NCBI RefSeq assembly: GCF_019059575.1
Contig: NW_024881829.1
Coordinates: 1 to 64,000 of the forward strand
Length of the DNA stretch: 64,000 nt
Direction of reading: 5' to 3'
DNA from: Amphibalanus amphitrite
Lineage: Eukaryota > Arthropoda > Thecostraca > Balanomorpha > Balanidae
Shown here piece after piece: positions 22,116 to 64,000 of the stretch; the stretch's first letter is position 1; every line of letters starts with the position of its first letter. Below the pieces are notes generated by a model that was not told the origin of the DNA, made no database searches, and was given only the letters and a program-made list of their open reading frames with translations. The position numbers and the translations under genes were made by a program.

Positions 22116-22542
22116 ACATGTGTGTGAGTGAAGCACAGTCGCCCACATATTCGTGGAAAGTTTCATGAATAAATATGGTATAGCCTCTGAGTTATCGCAT
22201 TTGGAAAATTTGCCACTATTTTAGGGGACAGATGTTATTTCCTGGTTTTCTTTATAGGCCAAGGCTTGGTAACTGATAACTCTGCTGCCCTATAATGGGT
22301 CCGGCCCGCTGTGGCGAGTGAAGACACTCGCCCTGACTGACTGGACCGCCAGCCGAGACGCTGCTGACTCTGGTGGTGAATAGTGAGCGAAAGAGGAGAA
22401 AGTTTACGCCAAAGCTGAAGCAACTCTACATTGCTGTACAGCTATTACGCTTTTCACCTGGTGGCCAGTAGAGGAACTAACAGTTACTACAACTGACCGT
22501 CAGAAGCACCCAACACACACTGTGCCGCTCCCAGTAACGTAC

Positions 22543-22664
22543 CAGGATGTAGACCCCAGTCGGGCAGCGCTCCGGCGTCCGGCGGCCGCAGCTGGTCCAG
22601 CAGTGACTGCAGCCGGCCGGCGCTGGCCTCCGGCGCCGTCAGACAGGCGTTCACGGCCACCACC
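22543..22664 (-). CDS. IQGAP-like exon E3 (unit 1)
   Basis: A 122-nt exon: one base, 40 codons, one base. It encodes VVAVNACLTAPEASAGRLQS followed by LLDQLRPPDAGALPDWGLHP. The acceptor is GTCCGTCAG and the donor GTACGT. The pattern (hydrophobic AVNACL, then LL..LR.PDAG.LPDW) matches the IQGAP repeat, in which a V..INEAL..GD segment precedes a TL.AL..P.A.L..V segment. Near-identical copies are in units 2, 4, 5, 6, 7, 8, 10, 11, 13 and 14. The IQGAP call is from motif memory and was not checked by alignment. Confidence 0.55.
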
Positions 22665-22948
22665 CTGACGGACAGACGTCACACGGTCAGCAGAGAGCCG
22701 ACACTCGGTCAGCGGACAGTGGCATTAAGTCACCGGATAGCAGAGCATCGCCGCAGCACAGAGACCAGACAGGACTGTGCCGACAACGCAACCCCGTTGG
22801 AGTAACATGACCCTAATAAATGCACCGAAAATGCTCTGGTCTATCTCCATTATTTATAAAAAAAAAAATGAAAGAACAACTGAGATGAGGGAAAGGAGTG
22901 AGGCGTCTGTTAGGGTCCCCGTGCAATACGCCCGGTGTGGTGACTGAC

Positions 22949-23081
22949 CTCTGCGCCGCAAGCTGGAGAGCTGGTTCACCTGGCTGACGACCTTCTGTAC
23001 CTCCTCGGCGGAGAGCGGATTGCCGTTGGTGGCCCGCCGCAGCCCGTCCCGGTAGCCGGCCGCCCCATCCGGCGACACACC
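22949..23081 (-). CDS. IQGAP-like exon E2 (unit 1, open copy)
   Basis: Encodes GVSPDGAAGYRDGLRRATNG then NPLSAEEVQKVVSQVNQLSS and LRRR. The acceptor is GACTCCCCAG; the donor is GTCAGT, or alternatively GTCACC five bases further, which gives the phase needed to join E3. LSAEEVQKVVSQVN corresponds to the conserved WNDIQxxVDxVN-type segment of the IQGAP-repeat region. This copy, and those in units 7 and 13, lack the in-frame stop present in four other copies. Confidence 0.55.
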
Positions 23082-23574
23082 CTGGGGAGTCATAGCATTA
23101 CACTCAGGCAGGTTCAGGTTTCAGTCCGACACACAGAACCGTCCGGCGACACGACCTGGGGGCGACACATGGGCGCGCTCAGGGCTCAGGTACAGGTCTC
23201 GCGAGATTAAGCGGTAGGTTTTGCACTTTTACATTTCCGGTTATATCTCAGAAACTAATCGATCTACGATGAAGCCATTTTATACGATCATGGCCGGTAG
23301 GGTGGCACTAAAACGGGGCTAAAATTTCGTTTGAGAATTTTCAACGGGACGGGCAGTCAATCTGTTCTACCACCGGAGGAAACGTTGTGTGTAAAATATT
23401 TTTGGAAAATGTTTATTTAGAGGTAGCTCAACCAGGTCAAAGTTCACATTTTTGTGAAAAACACAACTATGACGAACTTTTTATTTCCACGTGCATTTCT
23501 GACGTTCACAATGACATTGGACGTTGTCAATACTTCTTCAAAACGTTTCAGCACCTAAACTTCAAATATATATA

Positions 23575-24375
23575 CAGGGTGATCCAAAAAAATTGGAACC
23601 CCTAACTTAAAATGTCTGTAAGTCAGAAAATTTTCAATTTATTGATAAATTGCAAACACCATTAGAAAGAACGTTCAATTCTCTATAAAACCAAGTTGAT
23701 TGTACTTACTTATTATTATAAATAGTGCCCTAGACAGTAGACATATTCCTATAAAATTTGTGTTACGAAACTCAGTGAAACGGTTTTGAACATTATGCGC
23801 AAATCAGTGATTGACGGTTTGCTGTTCTGACCATGTCGCTTGTTGGAGGTCCATGAATAAAAATAGCTCATACACTTGCTATTGTAAGGAAAGGAAAGAC
23901 TGACAGCCTGCTGGGACCAGTTGTCCCAGAGACTGCTGGCCAGTGCAGTCGGAGCTGTCCCCGAGCAACTGCAGGCCTGCGCGACGGCCCCCGGAGCTCG
24001 CGTTGAGCACATGCTGTGATGAACAGCGGAAGCTAGGACGCGTGTATCTGTTCTACTATGTGCTTCTGTGTAAAATTTAATGAAATAAAATTGAATTTGG
24101 ATGTGGTATTATTCGCAAAAAGACAACAGATAGAATGCTAACGGATTTCAGCGCATTGTAAACATTTGGCAATTTTGTTTCACTCAGTTTTCTGACGCTC
24201 ATTCCAAAAACTAATAGTGTGCCAATGCTGTACAACATACATGCACCAATTTGACGTGATTTTATGGAGGAGTTAATGCTCTTTCTTATGGTGTTCGCAA
24301 TTTGTCAATAAAGTGAATACTGTCGGACTTATAGACATTTTAAGTTAGGGGTTCCAAATTTTTTGGATCACCCTG
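23575..24375 (+). mobile_element. Mariner-type MITE with CAGGGTGATCC ends
   Basis: An 801-bp element whose ends are long inverted repeats, from CAGGGTGATCCAAAAAA through GGAACCCCTAACTTAAAATG. It is flanked by TA on both sides (23573-23574 and 24376-24377). TA targets and CAGGGTG-type termini are typical of mariner-family elements. A minus-strand frame at 23749-24012 shows no catalytic motif, so it is non-autonomous. It recurs intact at 37499-38299 in unit 7, so it inserted before the 13.9-kb duplication. Confidence 0.8.
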
Positions 24376-24519
24376 TATAGGTACATATGAGGTATATAGT
24401 TCTTTTGAAGGTATCCTTAACTTAATGCATAGCTACATGAAAAGAGAAAGCGGTATCATCGGTAATCAGCCAACACTTGTACACATCATTCGTCGGCTAG
24501 TCTCGCCCACTTAGAAGTT

Positions 24520-25327
24520 ACGATCGCCTTGCGTATGTTAGAAAACTTGCGTCTTTGCTCCTCGACGACCTACAAGAGAAGCTGCTTCATCTTCATCAAA
24601 GTCTTCACCTTCTTCAAGTCTTCATCCTTCGTGGGGGTCAGATTGATTTCCTGGCCATCAACAACATACCTCGTTCTGCGAAGTCGTAGAAGTTGTGATA
24701 TGACGAAGTCTTCCGTGGACTTGCTAGAGACTGAAGCTATAGTAAGTTCAACGTTGGCTCGACGGGGGGGGGGGGGTCCTCGGCCCTCTCTTCTCTTAAC
24801 GATGCAGCCATCTCACGTTTAGTAACAGCGAACGTAATCTCCTTATCAAAGGCGAGGGCGACCAGCCCCTCATTTAGATATCAGAGGTGACGGCTGAAGA
24901 CAATGGCTGTCGCCTTGGACACCAGTTCGGACATCAATTCGTCCAATTCGTACTCTAGGAGGGACTTGAAGAAGTCGAGATCTTGCGCTAGTGCAGACGC
25001 CAGAAGCGATGCATTGAATTGAGCCGAAAACTACGTTATTACCACAAAGGTCACGATTCGCTGGAGGCTCTTCTTCTTAGACATAGTGAGGCACGATTGT
25101 GCTCGGAAGAGGTATAGTTTCATAGCGCAAATGGCATTGGTCAACCAGTACACACAGAGCATATCGGGGCGAGTGATCTTCATACCTCGTTTCGGAGCAC
25201 CACCGAGGACAGCGATTGCCAGCTCCAGCATCTCGCGGTTGTCGCGTGAGTGCTGGCGGTTAGGGACACCTTTACGACCGACTCTGTGCAAGAGCATCAC
25301 CTGGGTTGTGGAGGTGGGACATGTCAC
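24520..25327 (-). pseudogene. Degenerate coding relic, probably transposon-derived (family not recognised)
   Basis: On the minus strand, from 25327 downward, about 98 codons are open, including GRKGVPNRQHSRDNREMLEL and WLTNAICAMKLYLFRAQSCL. After a stop, collinear protein-like sequence continues through FNASLLASALAQDLDFFKSL. A poly-G/poly-C run near 24764-24776 and several stops break the frame. The composition and motif string look like a decayed mobile-element protein, but I cannot name the family. It is duplicated at about 38449-39256. Confidence 0.4.
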
Positions 25328-25494
25328 AGTTTTTGAAGGTTTATGGCTTCGTTCTATCTATCGACGCCCACTTTTTATGGAAGCGCTTAAACAAAGCAAC
25401 GTCTGGGCCGCTGGACGGATTGAGTCAGGCTGTAAATGTCTTACTAACTTAAAATTGTAAAATTAAATAAAATTACTATCTTAAAATTGTCCTA

Positions 25495-25683
25495 CTAACG
25501 GGCCACTCTTTGGTGGCCACAAGCATGGTTAGAAGGCACAAAGAAACTGTTGTCTGTCCATTGTGTCGTAATGCCATTGAAACTCTGGAACACATGCTCT
25601 TTGAATGTGACAAACTGAAAGACGATAGAGTAGCTGCTCAAAAAATATACAAAACTACTATTAAACTACAAAAATACTACTAA
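25495..25683 (+). pseudogene. 3' end of a non-LTR retrotransposon ORF
   Basis: A 62-codon open stretch to a TAA stop starts LTGHSLVATSM and contains CPLCRNAIETLEHMLFEC, a C-x2-C-x8-H-x4-C zinc-knuckle. This TGH plus C-terminal knuckle arrangement is seen at the end of the reverse-transcriptase ORF in I, R1 and LOA-type LINEs. Nothing upstream of it is LINE-like, so the copy is severely 5'-truncated. An identical relic lies at 39424-39612. Confidence 0.65.
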
Positions 25684-25691
25684 TTGCTACT

Positions 25692-26988
25692 ATTTCTTGG
25701 TTTTCTTTATAGGCCAAGGCTTGGTAACTGATAACTCTGCTGCCCTGTAATGAATCCGGCCCGCTGTCGCGAGTGAAGACACTCGCCCTGACTGACTTAA
25801 CCGCCAGCCGAGACGCTGCTGACTCTGGTGGTGAATGGTGAGCGGAAGAGGAGAAAGTTTACGCCAAAGCTGAAGCAACTCTACATTGCTGTACAGCTAT
25901 TACGCTTTTCAACTGGTGGCCAGTAGAGGAACTAACAGTTACTACAACTGACCGTCAGAAGCACCCCACACACCGTGCCGCTCCCAGTAACGTACCAGGA
26001 TGTAGACCCCAGTCGGGCAGCGCTCCGGCGTCCGGCGGCCGCAGCTGGTCCAGCAGTGACAGCAGCCGGCCGGCGCTGGCCTCCGGCGCCGTCAGACAGG
26101 CGTTCACGGCCACTACCCTGACGGACAGACGTTACACGGTCAGCAGAGAGCCGACACTCGGTCAGCGGACAGTGGCATTGGGTCACCGGATCACCTTGGC
26201 GTTAAACACTAACGCCAAGGGGATGACAACTGCTGAGGAATAAAGAAACTACATGCAGGTACACTGGGAACACGTCATGCTGGAGTTGACGTGTTCCCAG
26301 CCCGTCCTGTACCATGCAGCCCGTCCCGATGATCACTCCCGCCTCTGATGGCTTATCCTGCTATACAGGGCCGGATATTGGTTGGAGCTGTTTGGACACT
26401 GGCGTCAGCGGCTGTGGCGACTGACGGCCGAGCCGACGGCGTGCACAGCTCAGCTGTCTGAGGTCAGGGCTGCGACACAGCTCAGCTATCTCGGGTCAGG
26501 ACCGTGACCTCCTATGAAAGGACCCAGAGAGGGATGTAACATCGGTGACTCCCTGCTTAACCCTAACAATCCCTACTTTTTCTCCGCGCTATAAAAAAAC
26601 ACATGCGCGCTAAAAAAAAACACATCCCTATCAACCAGTCCCAAACAGTGTACCAAATTTGAGCGCAATGGGCGTGGCAGTTCAGGGTTCAAGATATATG
26701 AGCAACCCAAAATCGCTACTGCAGCAGAATAACGAACGCTCTTGGCCCTTCACGTCGCACGTGTCACGACGCTCACCATGATACATCAGTTGTAGTCAAT
26801 AACTCACCAAGATACATCAGTTGTAGTCAATAACGAGATGGAAGGGATAGGAATACGCAACAAAGAGTAACGCATGTCAATCAGCCCAGCGGTTGCTGAC
26901 TTACAAGCCTATTAAAAACGTTACAGGAATACGCTTCGCTAGCTCAATCGTAATAGAGTAGAATCATTACATATATGCAATTGCTACT
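25692..26988 (-). repeat. Array unit 2 (short form, E3 only)
   Basis: About 1.30 kb with E3 at 25996-26117. After the E3-side sequence ...GGGTCACCGGAT it jumps straight to CACCTTGGCGTTAAACACTA, omitting the E2, micro-exon, E1 and left-arm segments. The new junction forms a CCTTGGCGTTA/TAACGCCAAGG hairpin. A second perfect hairpin (14-bp stem, CTGGGAACACGTCA) lies at 26264-26300. Confidence 0.75.
25996..26117 (-). CDS. IQGAP-like exon E3 (unit 2)
   Basis: Same exon as in unit 1 with a Gln-to-Leu codon change in the RLQSLL segment and intact AG/GT borders. It is the only exon in its unit. Confidence 0.5.
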
Positions 26989-27267
26989 ATTTCCTGGTTT
27001 TCTTTATAGGCCAAGGCTTGGTAAGGCCAAGCGGACAGTGGCATTGGGTCACCGGATAGCAGAGCATCGCCGCAGCACACAGACCAGACAGGACTGTGCC
27101 GACAACGCAACCCCGTTGGAGTAACATGACCCTAATAAATGCACCGAAAATGCTCTGGTCTATCTCCATTATTTACAAAAAAAAAAATGAAAGAACAACT
27201 GAGATGAGGGAAAGGAGTGAGGCGTCTGTTAGGGTCCCCGTGCAATACGCCCGGTGCGGTGACTGAC

Positions 27268-27400
27268 CTCTGCGCCGCTAGCTGGAGAGCTGGTTCACCC
27301 GGCTGACGACCTTCTGTACCTCCTCGGCGGAGAGCGGATTGCCGTTGGTGGCCCGCCGCAGCCCGTCCCGGTAGCCGGCCGCCCCATCCGGCGACACGCC
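27268..27400 (-). pseudogene. IQGAP-like exon E2 with in-frame TAG (unit 3)
   Basis: Identical in frame to the unit-1 copy until codon AGC, where TTG has become TAG (SS-stop-RRR), four codons before the splice donor. Units 6 (32764-32896), 9 (41198-41330) and 12 (46261-46393) carry the same stop, so it predates their separation. Unless the exon is skipped or spliced upstream, these copies cannot be read through. Confidence 0.6.
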
Positions 27401-27786
27401 CTGGGGAGTCATAGCATAACACTCAGGCAGGTTCAGGTTTCAGTCCGACACACAGAACCGTCCGGCGACACGCCCTGGGGGCGACACATGGGCGCGCTCA
27501 GGGCTCAGGTACAGGTCTCGCGAGATTAAGCGGTAGGTTTTGCACTTTTACATTTCCGGTTATATCTCAGAAACTAATCGATCTACGATGAAGCCATTTT
27601 ACACGATCATGGCCGGCTTGTTACCCAACAAGTCGATCGCATCTTCAACACTTTAAAGCTTAAGACGACGAAGATATAGCCTGAAGTACACTAAATTTTC
27701 TAGGTGCAAAACCTACCGCTAAAACCCGCGAGACCTGTACCATGCACAAGGGCGCCGGGTGCAGTGTCTGTGTGTCCCTGACTGAC

Positions 27787-27816
27787 CTGCAGCGGTGACG
27801 CTGTCACAGAAAGCAC
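27787..27816 (-). CDS. Putative 30-nt micro-exon F (unit 3)
   Basis: GTGCTTTCTGTGACAGCGTC and the following ten bases are bordered by AACAG and GTCAGT and encode VLSVTASPLQ in phase 0, which joins E1 to E2 in frame. Copies lie at 33283-33312, 41717-41746, 46777-46806 and 61656-61685. The call rests on splice-site fit and phase only. Confidence 0.35.
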
Positions 27817-27985
27817 CTGTTCATTGCCCAATGGGTACAGCCCAGTTCCGGCCGGCCGAGTGCCCGCACGTACGCAGCCAGTGTTACGGTCTGTGTTCGA
27901 TCTATGTTACGGTCTGTGTTCAATCTATTTTACGCCCTGTGTAACGACCTGCGTTACGGTTTGTGTTACGGTCTGTGTTACATAC

Positions 27986-28113
27986 CCTGTTCTGGGCGGT
28001 CTCCACCCTGACCCTCTTAGCGTCCCAGAGTCGGTACTGGTAGAGGTGCGCGTTCTCTACCGACACGTCCCGCAGGTGAACGAGCAGGTTCTGTAGGCCG
28101 ACCAGCGTCTCAG
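27986..28113 (-). CDS. IQGAP-like exon E1 (unit 3)
   Basis: A 128-nt exon encoding ETLVGLQNLLVHLRDVSVEN then AHLYQYRLWDAKRVRVETAQ. The donor is GTATGT; the acceptor is GGTGCCAG (or TTCTCAG seven bases earlier). The TL.GLQN...LRDV..ENA.LYQ..L..AK..K pattern is that of an IQGAP repeat. Other copies: 33482-33609, 41916-42043, 46976-47103 and 61855-61982, with V/A and R/K differences. All are free of stops. Confidence 0.6.
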
Positions 28114-28363
28114 CTGGCACCTGAGAAGGTCAGGGGAGGGTAGGGGAGGTCAGTGGTGTACTGGTGTCTAACATAGACCAGCGGACAGGGGTGGCGCAGT
28201 AGGACCGTTCCGCGCTTGAAAGTGGACACATCTGAGGACCGTTCCGCGCGCGCTGACACTGCCTCTAGAACCGTTCTGCGAGCAGTCAGACATGCAGACC
28301 GGATTGATGTTTTGAAACTTTGACAAAATAAACTTTAATTAATTCGACACAGGTATCCTAACC

Positions 28364-29061
28364 GCATGTGTTTTTTATATCGCGGACAAAAAAGTGGGGA
28401 TTGTTAGGGCTAAGCAGGGAGTCACCGATGTTAGATCCCTCTCTGGGTCCTTTCATAGGTCACGGTCCTGACCCGAGATAGCTGAGCTGTGTCGCAGCCC
28501 TGACCTCAGACAGCTGAGCTGTGCACGCCGTCGGCTCGGCCGTCAGTCGCCACAGACGCTGACGCCAGTGTCCAAACAGGCCCAAACAATATCCGGCCCT
28601 GTATAGCAGGATAAGCCATCAGAGGCGGGAGTGATCAATGGAGGGACGCGAAACACTAACGCTAAGGGGATGACAACTGCTGAGGAATAAAGAAACTACA
28701 TGCAGGTACACCGGGAACACGTCATGCTGGAGTTGACGTGTTCCCAGCCCGTCCTGTACCATGCAGCCCGTCCCGGTGACCACTCCCGCCTCTGATGTCT
28801 TATCCTGCTATACAGGGCCGGATATTGTTTGGAGCTGTTTGGACACTGGCGTCAGCGGCTGTGGCGACTGAAGGCCGAGCCGACGGCGTGCACAGCTCAG
28901 CTGTCTGAGGTCAAGGCTGCGACACAGCTCAGCTATCTCGGGTCAGGACTCAGGACCGTGACCCCCTATGAAAAGACCCAGAGAGGGATCTAACATCGGT
29001 GACTCCCTGCTTAACCCTAACAATCCCTACTTTTTTCTCCGCGCTATAAAAAAACACATGC
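28364..29061. repeat. Foldback-like inverted repeat within the array unit
   Basis: The left arm 28364-28637 and right arm 28777-29061 are inverted copies, from GCATGTGTTTTTTATA at the outer edge to GGGAGTGATCA at the inner. They surround a 139-bp loop that contains the CTGGGAACACGTCA hairpin. It could be an old foldback or long-TIR MITE captured in the ancestral unit. Full units carry both arms; short units keep only the right arm. Confidence 0.55.
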
Positions 29062-29447
29062 ACGCTATAAAAAAAAAAACACATCCCTATCAACCAGTCC
29101 CAAACAGTGTACCAAATTTGAGCGCAATCGGCGTGGCAGTTCAGGGTTCAAAATATATGAGCAGCCCAAAATCGCTACTGCAGCAGAATAACGAACACTC
29201 TTGGCCCTTCACGTCGCACGTGTCACGACGCTCACCATGATACATCAGTTGTAGTCAATAACTCACCAAGATACATCAGATGTAGTCAATAACGAGATGG
29301 AAGGGATAGGATTACGCAACAAAGAGTAACGCAGGTCAATCAGCCCAGCGGTTGCTGACTCACAAGCCTATTAAAAACGTTACAGGAATACGCTTCGCTA
29401 GCTCAATCGTAATAGAGTAGAATCATTACATATATGCAATTGCTACT

Positions 29448-30745
29448 ATTTCTTGGTTTTCTTTATAGGCCAAGGCTTGGTAACTGATAACTCTGCTGCC
29501 CTGTAATGGGTCCGGCCCGCTGTCGCGAGTGAACACACTCGCCCTGACTGACTGGACCGCCAGCCGAGACGCTGCTGACTCTGGTGGTGAATGGTGAGCG
29601 GAAGAGGAGAAAGTTTACGCCAAAGCTGAAGCAACTCTACATTGCTGTACAGCTATTACGCTTTTCAACTGGTGACCAGTAGAGGAATTAACAGTTACTA
29701 CAACTGACCGTCAGAAGCACCCCACACACCGTGCCGCTCCCAGTAACGTACCAGGATGTAGACCCCAGTCGGGCAGCGCTCCGGCGTCCGGCGGCCGCAG
29801 CTGGTCCAGCAGTGACAGCAGCCGGCCGGCGCTGGCCTCCGGCGCCGTCAGACAGGCGTTCACGGCCACCACCCTGACGGACAGACGTTACATGGTCAGC
29901 AGAGAGCCGACACTCGGTCAGCGGACAGTGGCATTGGGTCACCGGATCACCTTGGCGTTAAACACTAACGCCAAGGGGATGACAACTGCTGAGGAATAAA
30001 GAAACTACATGCAGGTACACTGGGAACACGTCATGCTGGAGTTGACGTGTTCCCAGCCCGTCCTGTACCATGCAGCCGGTCCCGGTGATCACTCCCGCCT
30101 CTGATGGCTTATCCTGCTATACAGGGCCGGATATTGGTTGGAGCTGTTTGGACACTGGCGTCAGCGGCTGTGGCGACTGACGGCCGAGCCGACGGCGTGC
30201 ACAGCTCAGCTGTCTGAGGTCAGGGCTGCGACACAGCTCAGCTATCTCGGGTCAGGACCGTGACCTCCTATGAAAGTACCCAGAGAGGGATGTAACATCG
30301 GTGACTCCCTGCTTAACCCTAACAATCCCTACTTTTTCTCCGCGCTATAAAAAAACACATGCGCGCTAAAAAAAACACACATCCCTATCAACCAGTCCCA
30401 AACAGTGTACCAAATTTGAGCGCAATGGGCGTGGCAGTTCAGGGTTCAAGATATATGAGCAACCCAAAATCGCTACTGCAGCAGAATAACGAACGCTCTT
30501 GGCCCTTCACGTCGCACGTGTCACGACGCTCACCATGATACATCAGTTGTAGTCAATAACTCACCAAGATACATCAGTTGTAGTCAATAACGAGATGGAA
30601 GGGATAGGAATACGCAACAAAGAGTAACGCAGGTCAATCAGCCCAGCGGTTGCTGACTTACAAGCCCATTAAAAACGTTACAGGAATACGCTTCGCTAGC
30701 TCAATCGTAATAGAGTAGAATCATTACATATATGCAATTGCTACT
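29448..30745 (-). repeat. Array unit 4 (short form, E3 only)
   Basis: E3 at 29752-29873, open and with intact borders. Organised as unit 2. Confidence 0.75.
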
Positions 30746-32050
30746 ATTTCCTGGTTTTCTTTATAGGCCAAGGCTTGGTAACTGATAACTCTGCTGCCCT
30801 GTAATGGGTCCGGCCCGCTGTGGCGAGTGAAGACACTCGCCCTGACTGACTGGACCGCCAGCCGAGACGCTGCTGACTCTGGTGGTGAATGGTGAGCGGA
30901 AGAGGGGAAAGTTTACGCCAAAGCTGAAGCAACTCTACATTGCTGTACAGCTATTACGCTTTTCACCTGGTGGCCAGTAAAGGAACTAACAGTTACTACT
31001 ACTGACCGTCATAAGCACCCAACACACAACGTGCCGCTCCCAGTAACGTACATACCAGGATGTAGACCCCAGTCGGGCAGCGCTCCGGCGTCCGGCGGCC
31101 GCAGCTGGTCCAGCAGTGACAGCAGCCGGCCGGCGCTGGCCTCCGGCGCCGTAAGACAGGCGTTCACGGCCACCACCCTGACGGACAGACGTTACACGGT
31201 CAGCAGAGAGCCGACACTCGGTCAGCGGACAGTGGCATTGGGTCACCGGATCACCTTGGCGTTAAACACTAACGCCAAGGGGATGACAACTGCTGAGGAA
31301 TAAAGAAACTACATGCAGGTACACTGGGAACACGTCATGCTGGAGTTGACGTGTTCCCAGCCCGTCCTGTACCATGCAGCCCGTCCCGGTGATCACTCCC
31401 GCCTCTGATGGCTTATCCTGCTATACAGGGCCGGATATTGTTTGGAGCTGTTTGGACACTGGCGTCAGCGGCTGTGGCGACTGACGGCCGAACCGACGGC
31501 GTACACAGCTCAGCTGTCTGAGGTCAGGGCTGCGACACAGCTCAGCTATCTCGGGTCAGGACCGTGACCTCCTATGAAAGGACCCAGAGAGGGATGTAAC
31601 ATCGGTGACTCCCTGCTTAACCCTAACAATCCCTACTTTTTCTCCGCGCTATAAAAAAACACATGCGCGCTATAAAAAAAAACACATCCCTATCAACCAG
31701 TCCCAAACAGTGTACCAAATTTGAGCGCAATCGGCGTGGCAGTTCAGGGTTCAAGATATATGAGCAACCCAAAATCGCTACTGCAGCAGAATAACGAACG
31801 CTCTTGGCCCTTCACGTCGCACGTGTCACGACGCTCACCATGATACATCAGTTGTAGTCAATAACTCACCAAGATACATCAGTTGTAGTCAATAACGAGA
31901 TGGAAGGGATAGGATTACGCAACAAAGAGTAACGCAGGTCAATCAGCCCAGCGGTTGCTGACTTACAAGCCTATTAAAAACGTTACAGGAATACGCTTCG
32001 CTAGCTCAATCGTAATAGAGTAGAATCATTACACATATGCAATTGCTACT
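30746..32050 (-). repeat. Array unit 5 (short form, E3 only)
   Basis: E3 at 31056-31177. A 4-bp insertion creates a GTATGTAC donor in place of GTACGT; the exon is open. Unit 14 shares this donor variant. Confidence 0.75.
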
Positions 32051-39612: not shown

Positions 39613-39620
39613 TTGCTACT

Positions 39621-51960: not shown

Positions 51961-52378
51961 AAGGGTGGCAAAATGTGGACCCGAGGACCCGGTCAAAAGA
52001 ACCGGTCTGGACCCATATGGGTCCAGACCGGTTCCTGGAAATTTTCTGGCGGGTCCAACCGGGTCCTACCATAAACCATACATAGTGGACACTACATATG
52101 ATTGCAAAATATGAAGTGAATGGAAAGAAAACATTTGCTCATGTATGTTCCTTTGCACACTGTAGCTCATAAGTATTATCAGTGGGAAAACGGCTGTTTT
52201 ACACGATGCAATTAATGATTTCTACAAACGGTTTGTATTAATTGACTTATGGCCTATGGGGAACGGGTTCAACTGGTTCCGATTCCAACTTAGACCGGGT
52301 CCGACTGGTTCCAGAAATGTCCAGCCGGGTCTGGTTCGGGTCTGGTTCCCAAAATTTTCACGTTTTGCCACCTCTAGC
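51961..52378 (+). mobile_element. Small inverted-repeat element with GGTGGCAAAA ends and a central palindrome
   Basis: The left end reads GGGTGGCAAAATGTGGACC and the right end, in reverse complement, AGGTGGCAAAACGTGAAAAT. CCGGGTC/GACCCGG-type blocks recur at both sides. The left side contains a perfect 36-bp palindrome (51999-52034). No target duplication was identified, so class is uncertain; the ends are similar in style to hAT MITEs. Confidence 0.45.
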
Positions 52379-52479
52379 AGGAGTAATTTGTATCATTTCG
52401 TGATAACTTGATATCACCTGGTGAGCCACAGACTTCTGCATATCTCGGTATACAGAGGTATATGGGTGACCTAGGCTTG

Positions 52480-53520
52480 AACGCTCTCAGCCTGGGATTA
52501 ACCCGCGCCGGGCTGGTGCTCCTAGACTTCCGCGCCGGGCGGGAGGGGGTGTCTGGTCTAACTCGGCTCCTGGGCCACGTAGCGACACGCAGTAAGCAGC
52601 ATTCGAAAGAGCGTCAAAAATAATGACGGAAACACTTCGGTCATTTCTTGGGTCAGGTCAAAGGTCAGGTCGCCAGAGGTCATCAAAGGTCAAATGTAGG
52701 CCATTTCAACAATTTTGAAAACTGCAACGGCTAACTCGGGATCAATAGAGCTACAGCGCCGCGGAAAAGTGCATTCGATAGCCCTTTTACAGACCTTTCT
52801 GACCATTGTTCTCAGATTTGACCTCAGGTCAACGGTTTAGCCTCCAGAGGGCAAAAACGGTAAAATAGCAGTTTTCACGAAAACGGTTTTTCGGCAATAA
52901 CCTTTGACTCAAGAGCGCCACGACATTACTTTTGGCAGCATCATGTTCCTCTCGTCGAGACGCGTCGAATTAACTATTTGTTGACCTTGAAAGGTCATTT
53001 TTAAAATTTGACCTCAGGTCAAGGTCATAACCTGACCGAAAAGGGTCATGTTGCATATCAGTCGATCCGTATCGTCGAGCTGAATACATCTGACGTGTTT
53101 TCATCGCTCTAGCACGCCTTTATCAAAAGTTACAGCCAAAAAACTGGTGGTGACCGTTCATGACCTGAGATGACCTTAAGGGCACACATAGGGGTCACAG
53201 GTGCATTTTTTCCGATTCAGTGTATCATGTTTACCTATGAAACGATGTTTGAGAGGGTTCTAAATACCATTCGTCCAAAAAAGGCTCATTTCAATTTTCT
53301 CCCATTGACTTATAATGGAGAGGTCGCAAACATTACCTGACCTTAGGTCACTGATATCAAAATTCCGAGATAAACATTTTGAACATACTGTTACTCTTAT
53401 CAATCGCTGAAAGTTTCAAGGCGATCGTTCAGTCGGTGTAGCTATGACGAGGATTGCAACTTTTTTTCTGAGGTGAGGTCTTTTGACGTGACCTGGTGAC
53501 CTGACCTTGAGAGCTCTGGG
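52480..53520 (+). repeat. Dispersed repeat R, uninterrupted copy
   Basis: Bases 52555-52990 align with 17340-17708 plus 19037 onward and represent the empty site for the TTAA element there. Further right (52990-53520) are repeated TGACCT/AGGTCA blocks also seen near 13380 and 51140. No coding capacity. Confidence 0.6.
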
Positions 53521-53589
53521 TCTGAAATTTGCACATGTGTAAAAAAGATGCATGAACAGGTGTGCCAAAAATGGCGGCGCGGAGTTTTG

Positions 53590-54160
53590 AGATATCTGCG
53601 AAAAACCGCAGGGGAGGTGTTCACTCCCTCCCTCCCCCCCCCCCGGCCCGGCGCGGGCGGGGGGGGGGCAATTTTTTTTATTTTTTCGATGAGGGCAAAT
53701 TTTTGCCACTGGTTTGCTTCTAGAACACGTGCGGAAAGATGCAGTATGAAGTGTGTTCTTAACTTAAAAGGGGAGGCGTAAAAACGTCCCTTGCTTCTGC
53801 GTGGGGTAAAGTTCTACAGATTTGTTTCTTTAATCTCGCTTTTTTATCAGTTGTTTTTTCTTTTCTTTTTGTCAATTCATCAGTTCGTCTCGTTTCTTTA
53901 GAATAACTACCATATGCGTTGTTTAATAAGGCGTCACTACCCTGGTCCCCAATTCCACTACCCGCCCCCGGTCTCTGGTCCCCAAATTGCTTTCAAAATG
54001 TATTTGGTTTCAAAATAATTCCGCGCTTTTGGCGCGCTATTTCAGAAAAAAAAAACTGCAACATAACGTGCCAAAACACGACGGCACAAAAAAAACGTGC
54101 TATGGTAAAAAAAAATGCTGCCGTAAACTGAAATAAGACATTTCTACATAGACAGTCACG
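53590..54160. other. Low-complexity right part of the hAT-type element
   Basis: A C-rich and then G-rich run near 53625-53670 is followed by T- and A-rich stretches. No gene is supported. Confidence 0.4.
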
Positions 54161-54253
54161 GGGAGGCGCCCCCATGCCCTTAAAAAGGCGCCCCTGACAG
54201 CGTTGCCCCCCCCCCCCCAACGAAAACCAAAAAGTTACGCCCCTGGCCCAATC

Positions 54254-54696
54254 GGAGACGCCCATCGATCTGGCCAGCGCCCGAACCGCCATACGGCAGC
54301 GCGCCAGGGAAATGCAGGCCACGCGTGCACACCGGCACCCGCACCCCCAGCCCACGCCTGGACTCCAAGACCTCCCGCGCTGGGGGCAAGTGACCGTGTC
54401 GCAGTTGCGGACCGGCTACTGCCCCCTGGCACGAGCGACACTCCACCGCCTGGAGCTCACCCCGGACCCTCTCTGCCGGGAGTGCGGTGCCGAGGACACC
54501 GTTCGCCACCTTCTCACCGAGTGCCCAGCATTCGCCACCACGAGACGCCGGCTCTGGGGGAGGACCCCTGCCATCCCGTGGCGAGGTCCTCTCCGGGCCG
54601 GCCGGCAAGATAGTCGACTACATTCGGCGGGTGGGGCGGTCCGAGCCGCCGCTCGACCAGCCCCCGTCCGACGCGCCTGCGGGCGCGTCCACGTGA
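54254..54696 (+). pseudogene. LINE ORF, C-terminal part with zinc-knuckle
   Basis: Continuation of the RT/RNase H frame after the nested element. It contains LRTGYCPLARATLHRLEL and CRECGAEDTVRHLLTEC, a C-x2-C-x7-H-x4-C knuckle. Near 54575-54600 the likely reading changes frame to one ending SDAPAGAST and a TGA at 54694-54696, so at least one further frameshift is present. Confidence 0.75.
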
Positions 54697-56338
54697 CGTG
54701 CGGCAAAGAAGAAGAAGGTCAGTGGTGTACTGGTGTCTGACATAGACCAGCGGACAGGGGGGAGGGGAGAGGAAGAGGAGTCTGGTGGCGCAGTAGGACC
54801 GTTCCGCGCTTGAAAGTGGACACATCTGAGGACCGTTCCGAGCGCGCTGACACTGCCTCTAGAACCGTTCTGCGAGCAGTCAGACATGCAGACCGGATTG
54901 ATATTTTGAAACTTTGACATAATCAACTTTAATTAATTCGACACAGGTAGCCTAACCGCATGTGTTTTTTATATCGCGGACAAAAAAGTGGGGATTGTTT
55001 GGGTTAAGCAGGGAGTCACCGATGTTAGATCCCTCTCTGGGTCCTTTCATAGGTCACGGTCCTGACCCGAGATAGCTGAGCTGTGTCGCAGCCCTGACCT
55101 CAGACAGCTGAGCTGTGCACGCAGTCGGCTTGGCCGTCAGTCGCCACATACGCTGACGCCAGTGTCCAAACAGATCCAAACAATATCCGGCCCTGTATAG
55201 CAGGATAAGCCATCAGAGGCGGGAGTGATCAATGGAGGGACGCGAAACACTAACGCCAAGGGGATGACAACTGCTGAGGAATAAAGAAACTACATGCAGG
55301 TACACTGGGAACACGTCATGCTGGAGTTGACGTGTTCCCAGCCCGTCCTGTACCATGCAGCCCGTCCCGGTGATCACTCCCGCCTCTGATGGCTTATCCT
55401 GCTATACAGGGCCGGATATTGTTTGGAGCTGTTTGGACACTGGCGTCAGCGGCTGTGGCGACTGACGGCCGAGCCGACGGCGTGCACAGCTCAGCTGTCT
55501 GAGGTCAGGGCTGCGACACAGCTCAGCTATCTCGGATCAGGACCGTGACCTCCTATGAAAGGACCCAGAGAGGGATCTAACATCGGTGACTCCCTGCTTA
55601 ACCCTAACAATCCCTATTTTTTCTCCGCGCTATAAAAAACACATGCGCGCTATAAAAAACACATCCCTACCAACCAGTCCCAAACAGTGTACCAAATTTG
55701 AGCGCAATCGGCGTGGCAGTTCGGGGTTCAAGATATATGAGCAACCCAAAATCGCTACTGCAGCAGAATAACGAACACTCTTGGCCCTTCACGTCGCACG
55801 TGTCACGACGCTCACCATGATACATCAGTTGTAGTCAATAACTCACCAAGATACATCAGTTGTAGTCAATAACGAGATGGAAGGGATAGGATTACGCAAC
55901 AAAGAGTAACGCAGGTCAATCAGCCCAGCGCGGCGGTTGCTGACTTACAAGCCTACTAAAAACGTTACAGGAATACGCTTCGCTAGCTCAATCGTAATAG
56001 AGTACAATCATTACATATATGCAATTGCTACTATTTCCTGGTTTTCTTTATAGGCCAAGGCTTGGTAACTGGTAACTCTGCTGCCCTGTAATGGGTCCGG
56101 CCCGCTGTGGCGAGTGAAGACACTCGCCCTGACTGACTGGACCACAAGCCGAGACGCTGCTGACTCTGGTGGTGAATGGTGAGCGGAAGAGGAGAAAGTT
56201 TACGCCAAAGCTGAAGCAACTCTACATTGCTGTACAGCTATTACGCTTTTCACCTGGTGGCCAGTAGAGGAACTAACTGTTACTACAACTGACCGTCAGA
56301 AGCACCCAACACACACCGTGCCGCTCCCAGTAACGTAC

Positions 56339-56460
56339 CAGGATGTAGACCCCAGTCGGGCAGCGCTCCGGCGTCCGGCGGCCGCAGCTGGTCCAGCAGT
56401 GACAGCAGCCGGCCGGCGCTGGCCTCCGGCGCCGTCAGACAGGCGTTCACGGCCACCACC
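56339..56460 (-). pseudogene. IQGAP-like exon E3 with destroyed splice acceptor (unit 13)
   Basis: The coding stretch is open, but the acceptor CAG of other copies reads CAA here (plus-strand TTG at 56461-56463), so normal splicing into this exon is not expected. Confidence 0.55.
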
Positions 56461-56645: not shown

Positions 56646-59600
56646 TTTACATATATAAAAATCAAAATGTCCGTATGTATGTATGTATGTAACGCGTCAG
56701 TCACGCTTGGCGGGCTATTGCTCCGGAACGGTGCGGGCTACGGGGGTGAAATTTTGGACTTAAGTCGGACGCGTGCATCTGTTTGTTGTATTAAATTTTG
56801 GTGGGGGTGGGTTTGATGGTTTGCACGTGGCGGGCGCATCTTTGCGGGATTTTGGGCCGCGGCCGGTTTCGAGCAGACGGCACGCGCCTTAGGCTCAGTT
56901 TCTTCGCTGCAAAACTGAGTGAAATCAGAGCCGGAAGGTCACTGACCTTTGGCAATGAATACCGGAACAGGGCACCGCCGGCCAGGAGGAGACGCCAGAT
57001 TTATTCTGGCCATAACTCGGCCGCTACTGGGCCGATTTTAATGAAAATTGATTCATTACGCTGCGCGTAATGCTGTCCCTCTAGTCACTTATATAAAAAT
57101 CAAAATGTCCGTATGTATGTAACGCGTCAGTCACGCTTGGCGGGCTGTTGCGAGGCGACGGTGCGGGCTACGGGGGTGAAATTTTCGACACAAGTCGGAC
57201 GCGTGCATCTGTTTGTCGTATTAAATTTTGGTGGGGGTGCGCTCGCCGGTTTGCACGTGGCGGGCGCATCTTTGCAGCATTTTGGGCCGCGGCCGGCGCC
57301 GAGCAGACGGCACGCGCCTTAGGCTCAGTTTCGTCGCTGCAAAACTGGGTGAAATCAGAGCCGGAAGGTCACTGACCTTTGGCAATGAATACCGGAACAG
57401 AGCACCGCCGGCCAGGAGGAGACGCCAAATTTATTCTGGCAATAACTCGGCCGCTACTGGGTCGATTTTAATGAAAATTGATTTATTACGCTGCGCGTAA
57501 TGCTGTCCCTCTAGTCACTTATATAAAAATCAAAACGTCTGTACGTATGTATGTATGTATGTATGTATGTAACGCGTCAGTCACGCTTGGCGGGCTATTG
57601 CTCCGGAACGGTGCGGGCTACGGCGGTGAAATTTTCGACGTAAGTCGGACGCGTGCATCTGTTTGTCGTATTAAATTTTGGTGGGGGTGCGCTCGCCGGT
57701 TTGCACGTGGCGGGCGCATCTTTGCGGGATTTTGGGCCGCGGCGGTCGCCGATCAGAGAGCACGCGCATTATCCTCAGTTTCTTCGCTTGCGAAACTGAG
57801 CGAAATCAGAGCCGGAAGGTCACTGACCTTTGACAATGAATACCGGAACAGAGCACCGCCGGCCAGGAGGAGACGCCAAATTTATTCTGGCAATAACTCG
57901 GCCGCTACTGGGCCGATTGCAATGAAGCTTGGTTTATTACGCTGCGCGTAATGCTGTCCCTCTAGTTTACATATATAAAAATCAAAATGTCTGTATATAT
58001 GAAACGCGTCAGTCACGCTTGGCGGGCTATTGCTCCGGAACGGTGCGGGCTAGGGGGCTGAAACTTTGGCGCCGAGTCGGACGCGTGCATCTGTTTGTCG
58101 TATTAAATTTTGGTGGGGGTGCGCTCGCCGGTTTGCACGTGGCGGGCGCATCTTTGCGGAATTTTGGCCGCGGCCGGCGCCGAGCGGAGAGCACGTGCCG
58201 TAGGCTCAGTTTCTTCGCTTGCAAAACTGAGCGAAACCAGAGCCGGAAGGTCACTGACCTTTGGCAATGAATACCGGAACAGAGCACCGCCGGCCAAGAG
58301 GAGAAGCCAAATTTATTCTGGCCATAACTCGGCCGCTACTGGGCCGATTTTATTGAAACTTGATTTATTACGCTGCGCGTTATGCTGTCCCTCTAGTTAA
58401 CATATAAAAATCAAAATGTCTGTACGTATGTATGTATGTATGTAACGCGTCAGTCACGCTTGGCGGGCTATTGCTCCGGAACGGTGCGGGCTACGGGGGT
58501 GGAATTTTCGACGTAAGTCGGACGCGTGCATCTGTTTGTCGTATTAAATTTTGGTGGGGGTGGGTTCGGTGGTTTGCACGTGGCGGGCGCATATTTGCCG
58601 CATTTTGGGCCGCGGCCGGCGCCGAGCAGACGGCACGTGCCGTAGGCTCAGTTTCTTCGCTTTCAAAACTGAGCAAAATCAGAGCCGGAAGGTCACTGAC
58701 CTTTGGCAATGAATACCGGGACAGAGCACCGCCGGCCAGGAGGAGTCGCCAAATTTATTCTAGCAATAACTCGGCCGCTACTGGGCCGATTTTATTGAAA
58801 ATTGATTTATTACGCTGCGCGTAATGCTGTCCCTCTTTACGCTGCGCGTAATGCTGTCCCTCTAGTTTACATATATAAAAATCAAAACGTCCGTATGTAT
58901 GTATGTATGTATGTATGTATGTATGTATGTGACGCGTCAGTCACGCTTGGCGGGCTAATGCTCTGGAACGGTGCGGGCTACGGGGGTGAAATTTTCGACG
59001 TAAGTCGGACGCGTGCATCTGTTTGTTGTATTAAATTTTGGAGGGGGTGCGTGCAGCGGTGTGCACGTGGCGGGCGCATCTTTGCAGCATTTTGGGCCGC
59101 GGCCGCGCCGATCAGAGAGCACGCGCCTTAGGCTCAGTTTCTTCGCTTGCAAAACTGAGCGAAATCAGAGCCGGCAGGTCATTGACCTTTGGCAATGAAT
59201 ACCGGAACAGAGCACCGCCGGCCAGGAGACGCCAAATTTATTCTGGCCATAACTCGGCCGCTACTGGGCCGATTTTATTGAAACTTGATTTATTACGCTG
59301 CGCGTAATGCTGTCCCCCTTTACGCTGCGCGTAATGCTGTCCCTCTAGTTCTCTTATATAAAAATCAAAACGTCTGTACGTATGTATGTATGTATGTATG
59401 TAACGCGTCAGTCACGCTTGGCGGGCTATTGCTGTGGAACTGTGCGGGCTACGGGGGTGAAATTTTGGACTTAAGTCGGACGCGTGCATCTGTTTGTCGT
59501 AGTAAATTTTGGTGGGGGTGGGTTCGGTGGTTTGCACGTGGCGGGCGCATCTTTGCGGGATTTTGGGCCGCGGCTGGCGCCGAGCAGACGGCACGCGCCT

Positions 59601-59757
59601 TAGGCTCAGTTTCTTCGCTGCAAAACTGAGCGAAATCAGAGCCGGAAGGTCACTGACCTTTGGCAATGAACACCGGCGCAGGGCACCGCCGGCCAAGAGG
59701 AGACGCAACATTTATTCTGGCCATAATCACATATATAAAAATCAAAACGTCTGTACG

Positions 59758-59788
<31 letters not shown>

Positions 59789-61043
59789 CGCGTCAGTCAC
59801 GCTTGGCGGGCTATTGCCCCGGAACGGTGCGGGCTTCGGGGGTGGAATTTTGGGCGCAAGTCAGACGCGTGCATCTGTTTGTCGTATCAACTTTTCGAGG
59901 GGGTGGGTTCAGCGGTGTGCACGTGGCGGGCGTATCTTTGCAGCATTTTGGGCCGCGGCCGGCGCCGGGAAGACGGCACGCGCTTAGGCTCAGTTTCTTC
60001 GCTTTCAAAACTGAGCGAAATCAGAGCCGGAAGGTCACTGACCTTTGGCAACGAATACCGGAACAGAGCACCGCCGGCCAGGAGGAGACGCCAAATTTAT
60101 TCTGGCAATAACTCGCCCGCTACTGGGCCGATTTTATTGAAAATTGATTTATTACGCTGCGCGTAATGCTGGACACCTAGTTTACATATATAAAAATCAA
60201 AATGTCTGTATGAAACGCGTCAGTCACGCTTGGCGGGCTATTGCTCCGGAACGTTGCGGGCTACGGGGGTGAAATTTTCGACACAAGTCGGACGCGTGCA
60301 TCTGTTTGTCGTATCAAATTTTGGTGGGGGTGCGCTCGCCGGTTTGCACGTGGCGGGCGTATCTTTGCGGAATTTTGGCCGCGGCCGGCGCCGATCAGAG
60401 ATCACGCGCATTAGCCTCAGTTTCTTCGCTTGCCAAAATGAGCGAAATCAGAGCCGGAAGGTCACTGACCTTTGGCAATGAATACCGGAACAGAGCACCG
60501 CCGGCCAGGAGGAGACGCCAAATTTATTCTTACAATAACTCGGTCGCTACTGGGCCGATTTTATTGAAGCTTGATTCAATACGCTGCGCGTAATGCTGTC
60601 CCTCTAGTTTACATATATAAAAATCAAAATGTCCGTATGTATGTATGTAACGCGTCAGTCACGCTTGGCGGGCTATTGCTCCGGAACGGTGCGGGCTACG
60701 GGGGTGAAATTTTCGACGCAAGTAGGACGCGTGCATCTGTTTGTCGCATTAAATTTTGGTGGGGGTGGGTTCGGTGGTTTGCACGTGGGGGGCGCATCTT
60801 TGCAGCATTTTGGGCCGCGGCCGGCGCCGAGCAGAGAGCACGCGCCTTAGGCTCAGATTGTTCGCTGCGAAAACTGAGCAAAATCAGAGCCGGAAGGTCA
60901 CTGACCTTTGGCAATGAATACCGGAACAGAGCACCGCCGGCCAGGAGGAGACGCCAAATTTATTCTGGCCATAACTCGGCCGCAACTGGGCCGATTTTAA
61001 TGAAACTTGATTTATTACGCTGCGCGTAATGCTGGACACCTAG
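56646..61043 (+). mobile_element. Ten-unit head-to-tail array of Helitron-like elements
   Basis: Units end at 57084, 57514, 57965, 58396, 58865, 59348, about 59727 (3'-truncated), 60180, 60607 and 61043. Each starts near ATATATAAAAATCAAAA, followed by a variable (GTAT)n microsatellite and ACGCGTCAGTCACGCTTGGC, and ends GTAATGCTG...CTAG followed by T. The host sequence CTCCA/TTATTTATA is split between A and T with no duplication. A CTAG-T end, A/T insertion and no target duplication fit Helitrons. The 5' end is not TC, and no Rep/helicase is encoded, so the class is inferred. Units 5 and 6 have a doubled 3' terminus. Confidence 0.7.
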
Positions 61044-61136
61044 TTATTTATAAAAATGAAAGAACAACTGAGATGAGGGAAAGGAGTGAGGCGTCTGTTA
61101 GGGTCCCCGTGCAATACGCCCGGTGCGGTGACTGAC

Positions 61137-61269
61137 CTCTGCGCCGCAAGCTGGAGAGCTGGTTCACCCGGCTGACGACCTTCTGTACCTCCTCGGCGGA
61201 GAGCGGGTTGCCGTTGGTGGCCCGCCGCAGCCCGTCCCGGTAGCCGGCCGCCCCATCCGGCGACACGCC
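61137..61269 (-). CDS. IQGAP-like exon E2 (unit 13, open copy)
   Basis: Stop-free, with a VVSRVNQL variant and intact AG/GT borders. With E1 at 61855-61982 this is the only unit where both E1 and E2 are intact in sequence. Confidence 0.5.
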
Positions 61270-61854
61270 CTGGGGAGTCATAGCATAACACTCAGGCAGG
61301 TTCAGGTTTCAGTCCGACACACAGAACCGTCCGGCGACACGCCCTGGGGGCGACACATGGGCGCGCTCAGGGCTCAGGTACAGGTCTCGCGAGATTAAGC
61401 GGTAGGTTTTGCACTTTTACATTTCCGGTTATATCTCAGAAACTAGTCGATCTACGATGAAGCCATTTTACACGATCATGGCCGGCTTGTTACCCAACAA
61501 GTCGATCGCATCTTCAACACTTAAAAGCTTAAGACGACGAAGATATAGCCTGAAGTACACTAAATTTTCTAGGTGCAAAACCTACCGCTAAAACCCGCGA
61601 GACCTGTACCATGCACAAGGGCGCCGGGTGCAGTGTCTGTGTGTCCCTGACTGACCTGCAGTGGTGACGCTGTCACAGAAAGCACCTGTTCATTGCCCAA
61701 TGGGTCCAGCCCAGTTCCGGCCGGCCGAGTGCCCGCACGTACGCAGCCAGTGTTACGGTCTGTGTTCGATCTATGTTACGGTCTGTGTTCAATCTATTTT
61801 ACGCTCTGTGTAACGACCTGCGTTACGGTTTGTGTTACGGTCTGTGTTACATAC

Positions 61855-61982
61855 CCTGTTCTGGGCGGTCTCCACCTTGACCCTCTTAGCGTCCCAGAGT
61901 CGGTACTGGTAGAGGTGCGCGTTCTCTGCCGAGACGTCCCGCAGGTGAACGAGCAGGTTCTGTAGGCCCACCAGCGTCTCAG
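61855..61982 (-). CDS. IQGAP-like exon E1 (unit 13)
   Basis: Stop-free, alanine variant (DVSAENAHLYQ) with KVETAQ. Donor GTATGT intact. The upstream TTCTCAG of other units is shortened to CTCAG-type sequence by a small deletion near 61993, but GGTGCCAG remains. Confidence 0.5.
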
Positions 61983-63329
61983 CTGGCACCTGAGGTCAGG
62001 GGAGGGTAGGGGAGGTCAGTGGTGTACTGGTGTCTGACAATAGACCAGCGGACAGGGGGGAGGGGAGAGGGAGAGGAGTCTGGTGGCGCAGTAGGACCGT
62101 TCCGCGCTTGAAAGTGGACACATCTGAGGACCGTTCCGCGCGCGCTGACACTGCCTCTAGGACCGTTCTGCGAGCAGTCAGACATGCAGACCGGATTGAT
62201 GTTTTGAAACTTTGACACAATAAACTTTAATTAATTCGACACAGGTAGCCTAACCGCATGTGTTTTTTATATCGCGGACAAAAAAGTGGGGATTGTTAGG
62301 GTTAAGCAGGGAGTCACCGATGTTAGATCCCTCTCTGGGTCCTTTCATAGGTCACGGTCCTGACCCGAGATAGCTGAGCTGTGTCGCAGCCCTGACCTCA
62401 GACAGCTGAGCTGTGCACGCCGTCGGCTCGGCCGTCAGTCGCCACAGCCGCTGACGCCAGTGTCCAAACAGCTCCAAACAATATCCGGCCCTGTATAGCA
62501 GGATAAGCCATCAGAGGCGGGAGTGATCAATGGAGGGACGCGAAACACTAACGCCAAGGGGATGACAACTGCTGAGGAATAAAGAAACTACATGCAGGTA
62601 CACTGGGAACACGTCATGCTGGAGTTGACGTGTTCCCAGCCCGTCCTGTACCATGCAGCCTGTCCTGGTGATCACTCCCGCCTCTGATGGCTTATCCTGC
62701 TATACAGGGCCGGATATTGTTTGGAGCTGTTTGGACACTGGCGTCAGCGGCTGTGGCGACTGACGGCCGAGCCGACGGCGTGCACAGCTCAGCTGTCTGA
62801 GGTCAGGGCTGCGACACAGCTCAGCTATCTCGGGTCAGGACCGTGACCTCCTATGAAAGGACCCATAGAGGGATCTAACATCGGTGACTCCCTGCTTAAC
62901 CCTAACAATCCCTATTTTTTTCTCCGCGCTATAAAAAAACACATGCGCGCTATATAAAAAAACACATCCCTACCAACTAGTCCCACACAGTGTACCAAAT
63001 TTGAGCGCAATCGGCGTGGCAGTTCAAGGTTCAAGATATATGAGCAACCCAAAATCGCTACTGCAGCAGAATAACGAACACTCTTGGCCCTTCACGTCGC
63101 ACGTGTCACGACGCTCACCATGATAATCAGTTGTAGTCAATAACTCACCAAGATACATCAGTTGTAGTCAATAACGAGATGGAAGGGATAGGATTACGCA
63201 ACAAAGAGTAACGCAGGTCAATCAGCCCAGCGGTTGCTGACTTACAAGCCTATTAAAAACGTTACAGGAATACGCTTCGCTAGCTCAATCGTAATAGAGT
63301 ACAATCATTACATATATGCAATTGCTACT

Positions 63330-64000
63330 ATTTCTTGGTTTTCTTTATAGGCCAAGGCTTGGTAACTGATAACTCTGCTGCCCTGTAATGGGTCCGGCCC
63401 GCGGTGGCGAGTGAAGACACTCGCCCTGACTGACTGGACCACCAGCCGAGACGCTGCTGACTCTGGTGGTGAATGGTGAGCGGAAGAGGAGAAATTTTAC
63501 GCCAAAGCTGAAGCAACTCTACATTGCTGTACAGCTATTACGCTTTTCACCTGGTGGCCAGTAGAGGAACTAACAGTTACTACAACTGACCGTCAGAAGC
63601 ACCCAACACACACCGTGCCGCTCCCAGTAACGTACATACCAGGATGTAGACCCCAGTCGGGCAGCGCTCCGGCGTCCGGCGGCCGCAGCTGGTCCAGCAG
63701 TGACAGCAGCCGGCCGGCGCTGGCCTCCGGCGCCGTCAGACAGGCGTTCACGGCCACCACCCTGACGGAGAGACGTTACACGGTCAGCAGAGAGCCGACA
63801 CTCGGTCAGCGGACAGTGGCATTGGGTCACCGGATAGCAGAGCATTGCCGCAGCACACAGACCAGACAGGACTGTGCCGACAACGCAAACCCGTTGGAGT
63901 AACATGACCCTAATAAATGCACTGAAAATGCTCTGGTCTATCTCAGCAGGGAGTCACCGATGTTAGATCCCTCTCTGGGTCCTTTCATAGGTCACGGTCC
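63330..64000 (-). repeat. Array unit 14 (partial, rearranged, runs off the window)
   Basis: Contains E3 (63640-63761, open, GTATGTAC donor). At about 63943 the sequence jumps from GGTCTATCTC to AGCAGGGAGTCACCGATG, joining the E3 flank directly to the left foldback arm. E2, the micro-exon and E1 are absent. It continues beyond the right edge. Confidence 0.7.

Follow-up and report, generated by a model that had tools for sequence, protein, structure and literature searches.

Results

Exon-like blocks on the minus strand

The window is the stretch of 64,000 nucleotides analysed here, which opens contig C332 in an assembly of Amphibalanus amphitrite (807.6 Mb, 2,644 contigs). From position 22236 to the end of the window, the minus strand carries recurring blocks of three kinds, E1 (135 nt), E2 (133 nt) and E3 (122 nt), which very probably belong to a macrosatellite whose unit goes back to a disabled piece of an IQGAP gene. 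There are 5 copies of E1, 7 of E2 and 11 of E3 (Table 1), and all 23 blocks have CAG acceptors and GT donors, with the exception of one E3 whose acceptor is CAA. An earlier note on this DNA had described such blocks as recurring throughout, which they do; it had also announced at least 14 units, where we count 7 that bear an E2. As measured in the window, a unit consists of E1, 720 bp, E2, 418 bp, E3 and about 1,750 bp, with a short repeat of the acceptor and first bases of E2 lying 5' of that exon. The spacing of the window array is irregular. Past the end of the array, at contig position 64812, no match to E1, E2 or E3 is found up to contig position 144000.

An IQGAP gene that contains E1, E2 and E3

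Codon usage was scored in six frames per block, using the four histone frames and the reverse transcriptase frame of the window as training set. The frame proposed in the earlier note is the best for each block, with z values of 3.9, 2.9 and 3.3 for E1, E2 and E3: the lead over the other frames is distinct for E1 and narrow for E2, for which two minus-strand frames score 2.5 and 2.6, the latter containing a stop. In a profile search of the exon peptides, Pfam gives no IQGAP match, single or joined, and only DUF2533, with an E-value of 0.11, for E2. A comparison of the peptides with PDB has its sole match at an E-value of 0.99.

Our human IQGAP1 query is a partial, provisional sequence, without the CH domain. 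In a first test, E1 is identical to it at 17 of 41 positions, a score reached by 2 of 1000 shuffles; with an upstream part added to the query, the alignment is ungapped over 45 residues, and its score of 64 is reached by none of 1000 shuffles. The array copies of E2 and E3, taken alone, are not convincing, with scores reached by 26 and 708 of 1000 shuffles, respectively. When the whole query is compared with the window, two matches in the histone region rank above E1, all with E-values of about 1. A tblastn search with this query finds no other part of IQGAP in the window, as the earlier note had said, nor up to contig position 144000, where the RasGAP exons that it proposed to look for past position 64000 do not appear.

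RasGAP_C is a Pfam domain near the C-terminus of IQGAPs. A genome-wide search for this domain yields seven matches, all on contigs other than that of the window: two have long open frames, of 509 aa on C670 and 449 aa on C524, and an internal TAG is common to the other five. The contig C670 carries an IQGAP gene that is presumably complete, with E1, E2 and E3 in the same order as in the array (Table 1) and a partial duplicate of E3 at 308669. Its three exons, joined with omission of the exon that separates E1 from E2, give 191 residues free of stops; its E2 and E3 together reach a score of 118 over about 125 residues of the IQGAP1 query, which none of 1000 shuffles attains. With one window copy of each exon compared to this gene, the identities are 85.9% for E1, 90.0% for E2 and 90.0% for E3, and the longest exact match between the window array and the 13 kb of gene read is 24 nt. 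The resemblance to IQGAP is thus one of direct homology to a gene in the same genome and, judged by these alignments, E1, E2 and E3 are exons of the IQGAP repeat region.

A second copy of the gene, on C524, is similar to C670 at 84-98% in pieces, and is either an allele or a duplicate. In this copy, the start of E1 is present twice, 71 bp apart (C524:392216-392313), possibly through a small duplication within the gene. The 3' end of the IQGAP gene also exists as five intronless copies, on C304, C354, C42, C51 and C866 (L042-L046, L049-L053), in which three gene exons are contiguous and a TAG is common to all; four of them are 94-97% identical to the C354 copy. Their structure marks them as processed pseudogenes, which make up a small family distinct from the satellite.

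Lesions shared by the array copies

Three kinds of lesions set the array apart from the gene. Positions about 302854-304347 of C670, which include one exon, have no match in the array; E3 lacks 10 nt at its start and 173 nt inside, neither length being a multiple of 3; and E2 has TAG in place of the CAG of the gene, or TTG in three window copies. We tallied the lesions as exact strings in the window and in 27 outside loci, each exon copy being counted once; these loci were the ones that matched a window query best, which biases them toward similar copies, and four pairs of them overlap. The junction of the 10-nt deletion occurs in 35 copies and that of the 173-nt deletion in 36, with no gene form of either. 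Of 35 copies of E2, 32 carry the TAG, 28 of them in outside loci and 4 within the window; the remaining three, all window copies, read TTG, and the gene form is absent. TAG is near-universal among the copies seen. Neither the lost exon nor the deleted part of E3 has a match in these loci or in the window. Given these tallies, both deletions and the loss of the exon would most likely be older than the amplification.

The earlier note had read the blocks as a chain of exons with compatible phases, and this holds for the passage from E1 to E2 (0/0) only. E2 ends in phase 1 and the shortened E3 is entered in phase 2, so that the array deletions make the predicted splice chain lose its phase; E3 in turn ends in phase 1 while the canonical acceptor of E1 is in phase 0, and the two would agree only through an alternative acceptor placed 7 nt deeper in E1. 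The TAG is reached in 4 of the 7 window copies of E2. With this stop and the two deletions, no open reading frame runs through the joined array exons, and the array copies presumably make no protein.

Copy number, period and dispersal

Short probes place the unit in hundreds of positions of the genome. A 27-mer of E1, searched exactly, has 402 matches; a 38-mer of E2 and a 34-mer over the E3 deletion junction, each with at most 3 mismatches, have 435 and 466; the probes written backwards have none, and all three counts may include fragments. The gene-type version of the E1 27-mer, with at most 1 mismatch, is found at 3 places, once on C670 and twice on C524. A search with the E1+E2 module gives 1,300 seeds, which we do not use as a copy number; those scored comprise 40 full-length matches, one partial match and short reverse matches. 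These best 40 of the 1,300, on 20 contigs, are 98-100% identical to the module, against 86-90% between array and gene exons, as expected of a homogenised repeat. By simple arithmetic, 400-470 units would take up about 1.2-1.35 Mb and hence 0.15% of the assembly, a figure that fragments would lower and collapsed arrays would raise.

Among the matches listed, and with C11 excluded, the probes fall on at least 32 contigs; the isolated match on C11 is a fragment of 130 bp of the unit only. On C332 itself, probe matches are found at both ends, at 28-47 kb and at 638-657 kb of 657,244 bp. The period is 2,886-2,891 bp in three of the six loci examined (L006, L019 and L030), and runs of about 2,885 bp appear on C206, C361, C555 and C751 among the listed matches of the E1 27-mer; this period equals the length of the window unit. 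One E1 30-mer, compared with viral contigs, has no match. Close to satellite units on C498, we observed a degenerate tandem repeat of about 20 bp (L023:3037-4120).

Variation among copies

Within the window, 12 of 390 exon sites are variable, versus 44 of 1266 flank sites. The flanks are those downstream of E3 (294 sites), E1 (697) and E2 (75), with about 200 upstream of E2; excluded are 30 bases 5' of E3 (4 variable), the 15 bases before E1, of which 8 vary, and sequence past the breakpoints of units. E1 is more variable than its own downstream flank (4/135 vs 12/697). In 32 copies of E1 and 33 of E2, the variants are 26 replacements and 12 silent changes, or 68% replacement, where replacement sites make up about 72-75%; this tally omits E3, in which one frame-shifted copy gave spurious variants, and the loci L002-L004, which are window copies. 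Variation among the array copies is close to neutral. Between gene and array, pN/pS is 0.31, as expected if constraint still acted on one side or both while much of the divergence accumulated.

Reshaping of the array and its neighbourhood

The DNA of the array is itself repeated, with kilobase-long pairs at 96-99% identity. The E3 subunits of about 1.3 kb form runs of at most three which, together with the 9.9-kb duplicate, show a later local reshaping. The array is also interrupted by several other elements (Table 1). One of them has an open frame at 47115-49460, of 782 aa from stop to stop, with Pfam matches to a reverse transcriptase (RVT_1, E-value 2.1e-42) and to RNase H (1.5e-13).

Table 1. 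Features of the window (C332) and exons of the related gene on C670.
Feature	Position	Strand	Remark
Putative IQGAP-fragment macrosatellite array	22236..64000	-	Continues to contig position 64812; broken by mobile elements and other repeats
E1 copy	27986..28120	-	
E1 copy	33482..33616	-	85.9% identity to gene E1 (C670:302551-302685)
E1 copy	41916..42050	-	
E1 copy	46976..47110	-	
E1 copy	61855..61989	-	
E2 copy	22949..23081	-	TTG form
E2 copy	27268..27400	-	TAG stop
E2 copy	32764..32896	-	TAG stop
E2 copy	36873..37005	-	TTG form
E2 copy	41198..41330	-	TAG stop
E2 copy	46261..46393	-	TAG stop
E2 copy	61137..61269	-	TTG form
E3 copy	22543..22664	-	
E3 copy	25996..26117	-	
E3 copy	29752..29873	-	
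E3 copy	31056..31177	-	
E3 copy	32357..32478	-	10-nt deletion at start when aligned to gene
E3 copy	36466..36587	-	
E3 copy	39925..40046	-	
E3 copy	43681..43802	-	
E3 copy	44985..45106	-	
E3 copy	56339..56460	-	Acceptor CAG changed to CAA
E3 copy	63640..63761	-	
Three consecutive E3 subunits of ~1.3 kb	28651..32552	-	Period about 1,305 bp
9.9-kb block	22236..32086	-	Second copy at 36159-46015, 99.75% identical, offset 13.9 kb
Inverted repeat within unit	28371..29053		Arms of 173 and 89 nt, 94-96% complementary
1.2-kb insertion	34369..35565		~40-bp terminal inverted repeats; splits one unit
2.4-kb non-array stretch	23297..25682		Recurs at 37221-39611 within the 9.9-kb duplicate
Array-interrupting stretch	47149..54715	+	With reverse transcriptase and RNase H frame
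~430-bp tandem repeat	56649..61051		Breaks one unit
Gene upstream repeat-region exon	C670, around 302299-302367		
Gene E1	C670:302551-302685		
Gene exon between E1 and E2	C670, around 303947-304147		
Gene E2	C670:304537-304669		
Gene E3	C670:308833-309137		
Gene next exon after E3	C670, around 309529-309705		
RasGAP-like and C-terminal exons	C670, about 316-319 kb		By the IQGAP1 query; RasGAP_C by Pfam

The left edge of the array is adjoined by transposase-like frames (21011-22115), mariner/Tc1-like by sequence, with weak matches to DDE_3 and to a helix-turn-helix domain, below cut-off. Further left, at 1268-7952, lie frames for the core histones H2B (minus strand), H2A (plus), H4 (minus) and H3 (plus), with Pfam core-histone matches, that of the H4 frame being below the curated cut-off. 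A 144-bp satellite at 8492-11826 consists of two inverted halves that meet near 10790, and is flanked by a degenerate tract of TTAGG-type (AACCT) repeats at 8097-8363 and by a GGGTA-repeat tract at 12024-12518.

Discussion

Origin of the array

Shared lesions, copy number, period and dispersal all favour one of the two possibilities raised in the earlier note, the capture of part of a gene and its amplification as a satellite, and we consider it very probable that the array is a macrosatellite that grew from a disabled piece of an IQGAP gene. The source would be the gene seen on C670 and C524, or a close copy since lost, and the starting piece would have been genomic DNA with three exons of the IQGAP-repeat region: since intron sequence is retained, the fragment was presumably copied as DNA, and not by way of mRNA. 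From this piece, the exon that separates E1 from E2 would have disappeared, as would parts of E3; a stop would have arisen in E2, and fusion to about 1.7 kb of other DNA would have given the unit of about 2,886 bp; some 1.7 kb of the unit is indeed without match to the 13 kb of gene read. This unit would then have multiplied head to tail and come to occupy many places. Tandem growth could have proceeded by unequal exchange or rolling-circle copying, and the spread by ectopic exchange or reinsertion of circular DNA, while the inverted repeats in the unit may have favoured rearrangement. In the window, the array would later have been reshaped by the expansion of the 1.3-kb subunit, by the duplication at an offset of 13.9 kb and by insertions.

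Several observations speak against this origin. Where E2 reads TTG, in three copies, the stop is absent from that site, yet these copies are still out of phase with E3. Two of the loci examined, L011 and L018, have mixed offsets (2,882 and 3,007), and L023 runs into another repeat. The E3 exon is less variable than its own downstream flank (4/122 vs 24/294), and the changes counted within the window, 6 silent and 6 replacement, have an excess of silent ones over the neutral expectation. Finally, the splice-site dinucleotides are kept in nearly all copies examined, a weak point at about 97% identity.

Other explanations

The other possibility raised in the earlier note was a single IQGAP-like gene with a hugely expanded internal repeat, whose units would be spliced into one long protein. 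Canonical splice sites, the fit of phases from E1 to E2 and a codon usage that favours the coding frames are what such a gene would have, but the copies examined contain a stop or a wrong phase in E2 and E3, the probes match 402-466 places, spread over the many contigs listed, and an IQGAP gene is present on another contig. Together, the disabling lesions, the near-neutral variation, the hundreds of matches and the separate gene leave the expanded gene unsupported, and its probability close to negligible. An assembly artefact is extremely unlikely as well: the 9.9-kb duplicate, at 99.75%, could be a haplotype duplication, but other pairs of units differ by roughly 1-4% and carry different insertions, and the unit is found again on many contigs.

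The unit could also be mobile in its own right, as a transposable element (Helitron-like, for example) that captured a gene fragment, the tandem arrays being secondary. We regard this as rather unlikely. The spread of probe matches over many contigs, the inverted repeats inside the unit and the solitary 130-bp fragment on C11 would all agree with it, but many of the matches listed stand head to tail in runs whose period is nearly constant, and the sole isolated place read is this very fragment, not a complete unit with defined ends. A last proposal, made by analogy with the action of Su(Ste) on Stellate in Drosophila, has the non-coding units transcribed across the IQGAP exons, their RNA acting in trans as a regulator of the IQGAP gene or as a source of small RNAs against it. 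The homology of 86-90% in the exons of hundreds of copies could serve such a role, but with 24 nt as the longest exact match of the window array to the gene sequence read, it is very improbable. If it were true, a Stellate-like system would have arisen independently outside Drosophila, and the gene concerned would be that of a cytoskeletal scaffold.

Relation to known systems

A literature search, judged by title, found general precedents only and no satellite derived from IQGAP; the earlier note, too, knew of no such array. Kilobase-sized gene-bearing arrays, amplified gene families and seeded satellites are already known, and an IQGAP-derived satellite is new to the literature searched. Human macrosatellites, or megasatellites, are described in passages of PMC2588610 as tandem units over 2 kb, many with genes or repeated exons, and the array shares this kilobase-sized tandem build; the barnacle unit differs from them in being a disabled fragment of one identified gene, found on many contigs. 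PMC8794474 traces Su(Ste) of Drosophila to a chimeric gene and describes it as giving rise to Piwi-interacting RNAs (piRNAs), with expression of its relatives in the D. simulans clade. Like Su(Ste)/Stellate and related sex-chromosome families, in which gene-derived sequence is amplified to tens or hundreds of copies (PMC8794474), the array consists of amplified gene-derived sequence; the chimeric origin and the piRNAs are features described for Su(Ste). With ordinary satellites, as outlined in parts of the review PMC5615363, the array has in common that it is tandem, homogenised and apparently non-coding; the examples of seeds named there are rDNA spacers and mobile elements, while the seed of the array would be a fragment of a protein-coding gene. 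To IQGAP genes themselves, the likeness lies in the repeat region of the human IQGAP1 query, through the ungapped alignment of E1 and that of the E2 and E3 of the gene; the array differs from these genes by having no other IQGAP parts recognised with that query, and exons that cannot be read through.

A single assembly contains the lesions, the unit and a gene that shares the exons, which makes this a clear case where the birth of a satellite can be reconstructed. For annotation, the finding is a warning: IQGAP-like exons number in the hundreds in this genome, and they are probably not genes. The system may also provide a test bed for the passage from a gene fragment to a dispersed tandem repeat, and for asking if a repeat of this kind is able to regulate the gene that it came from.

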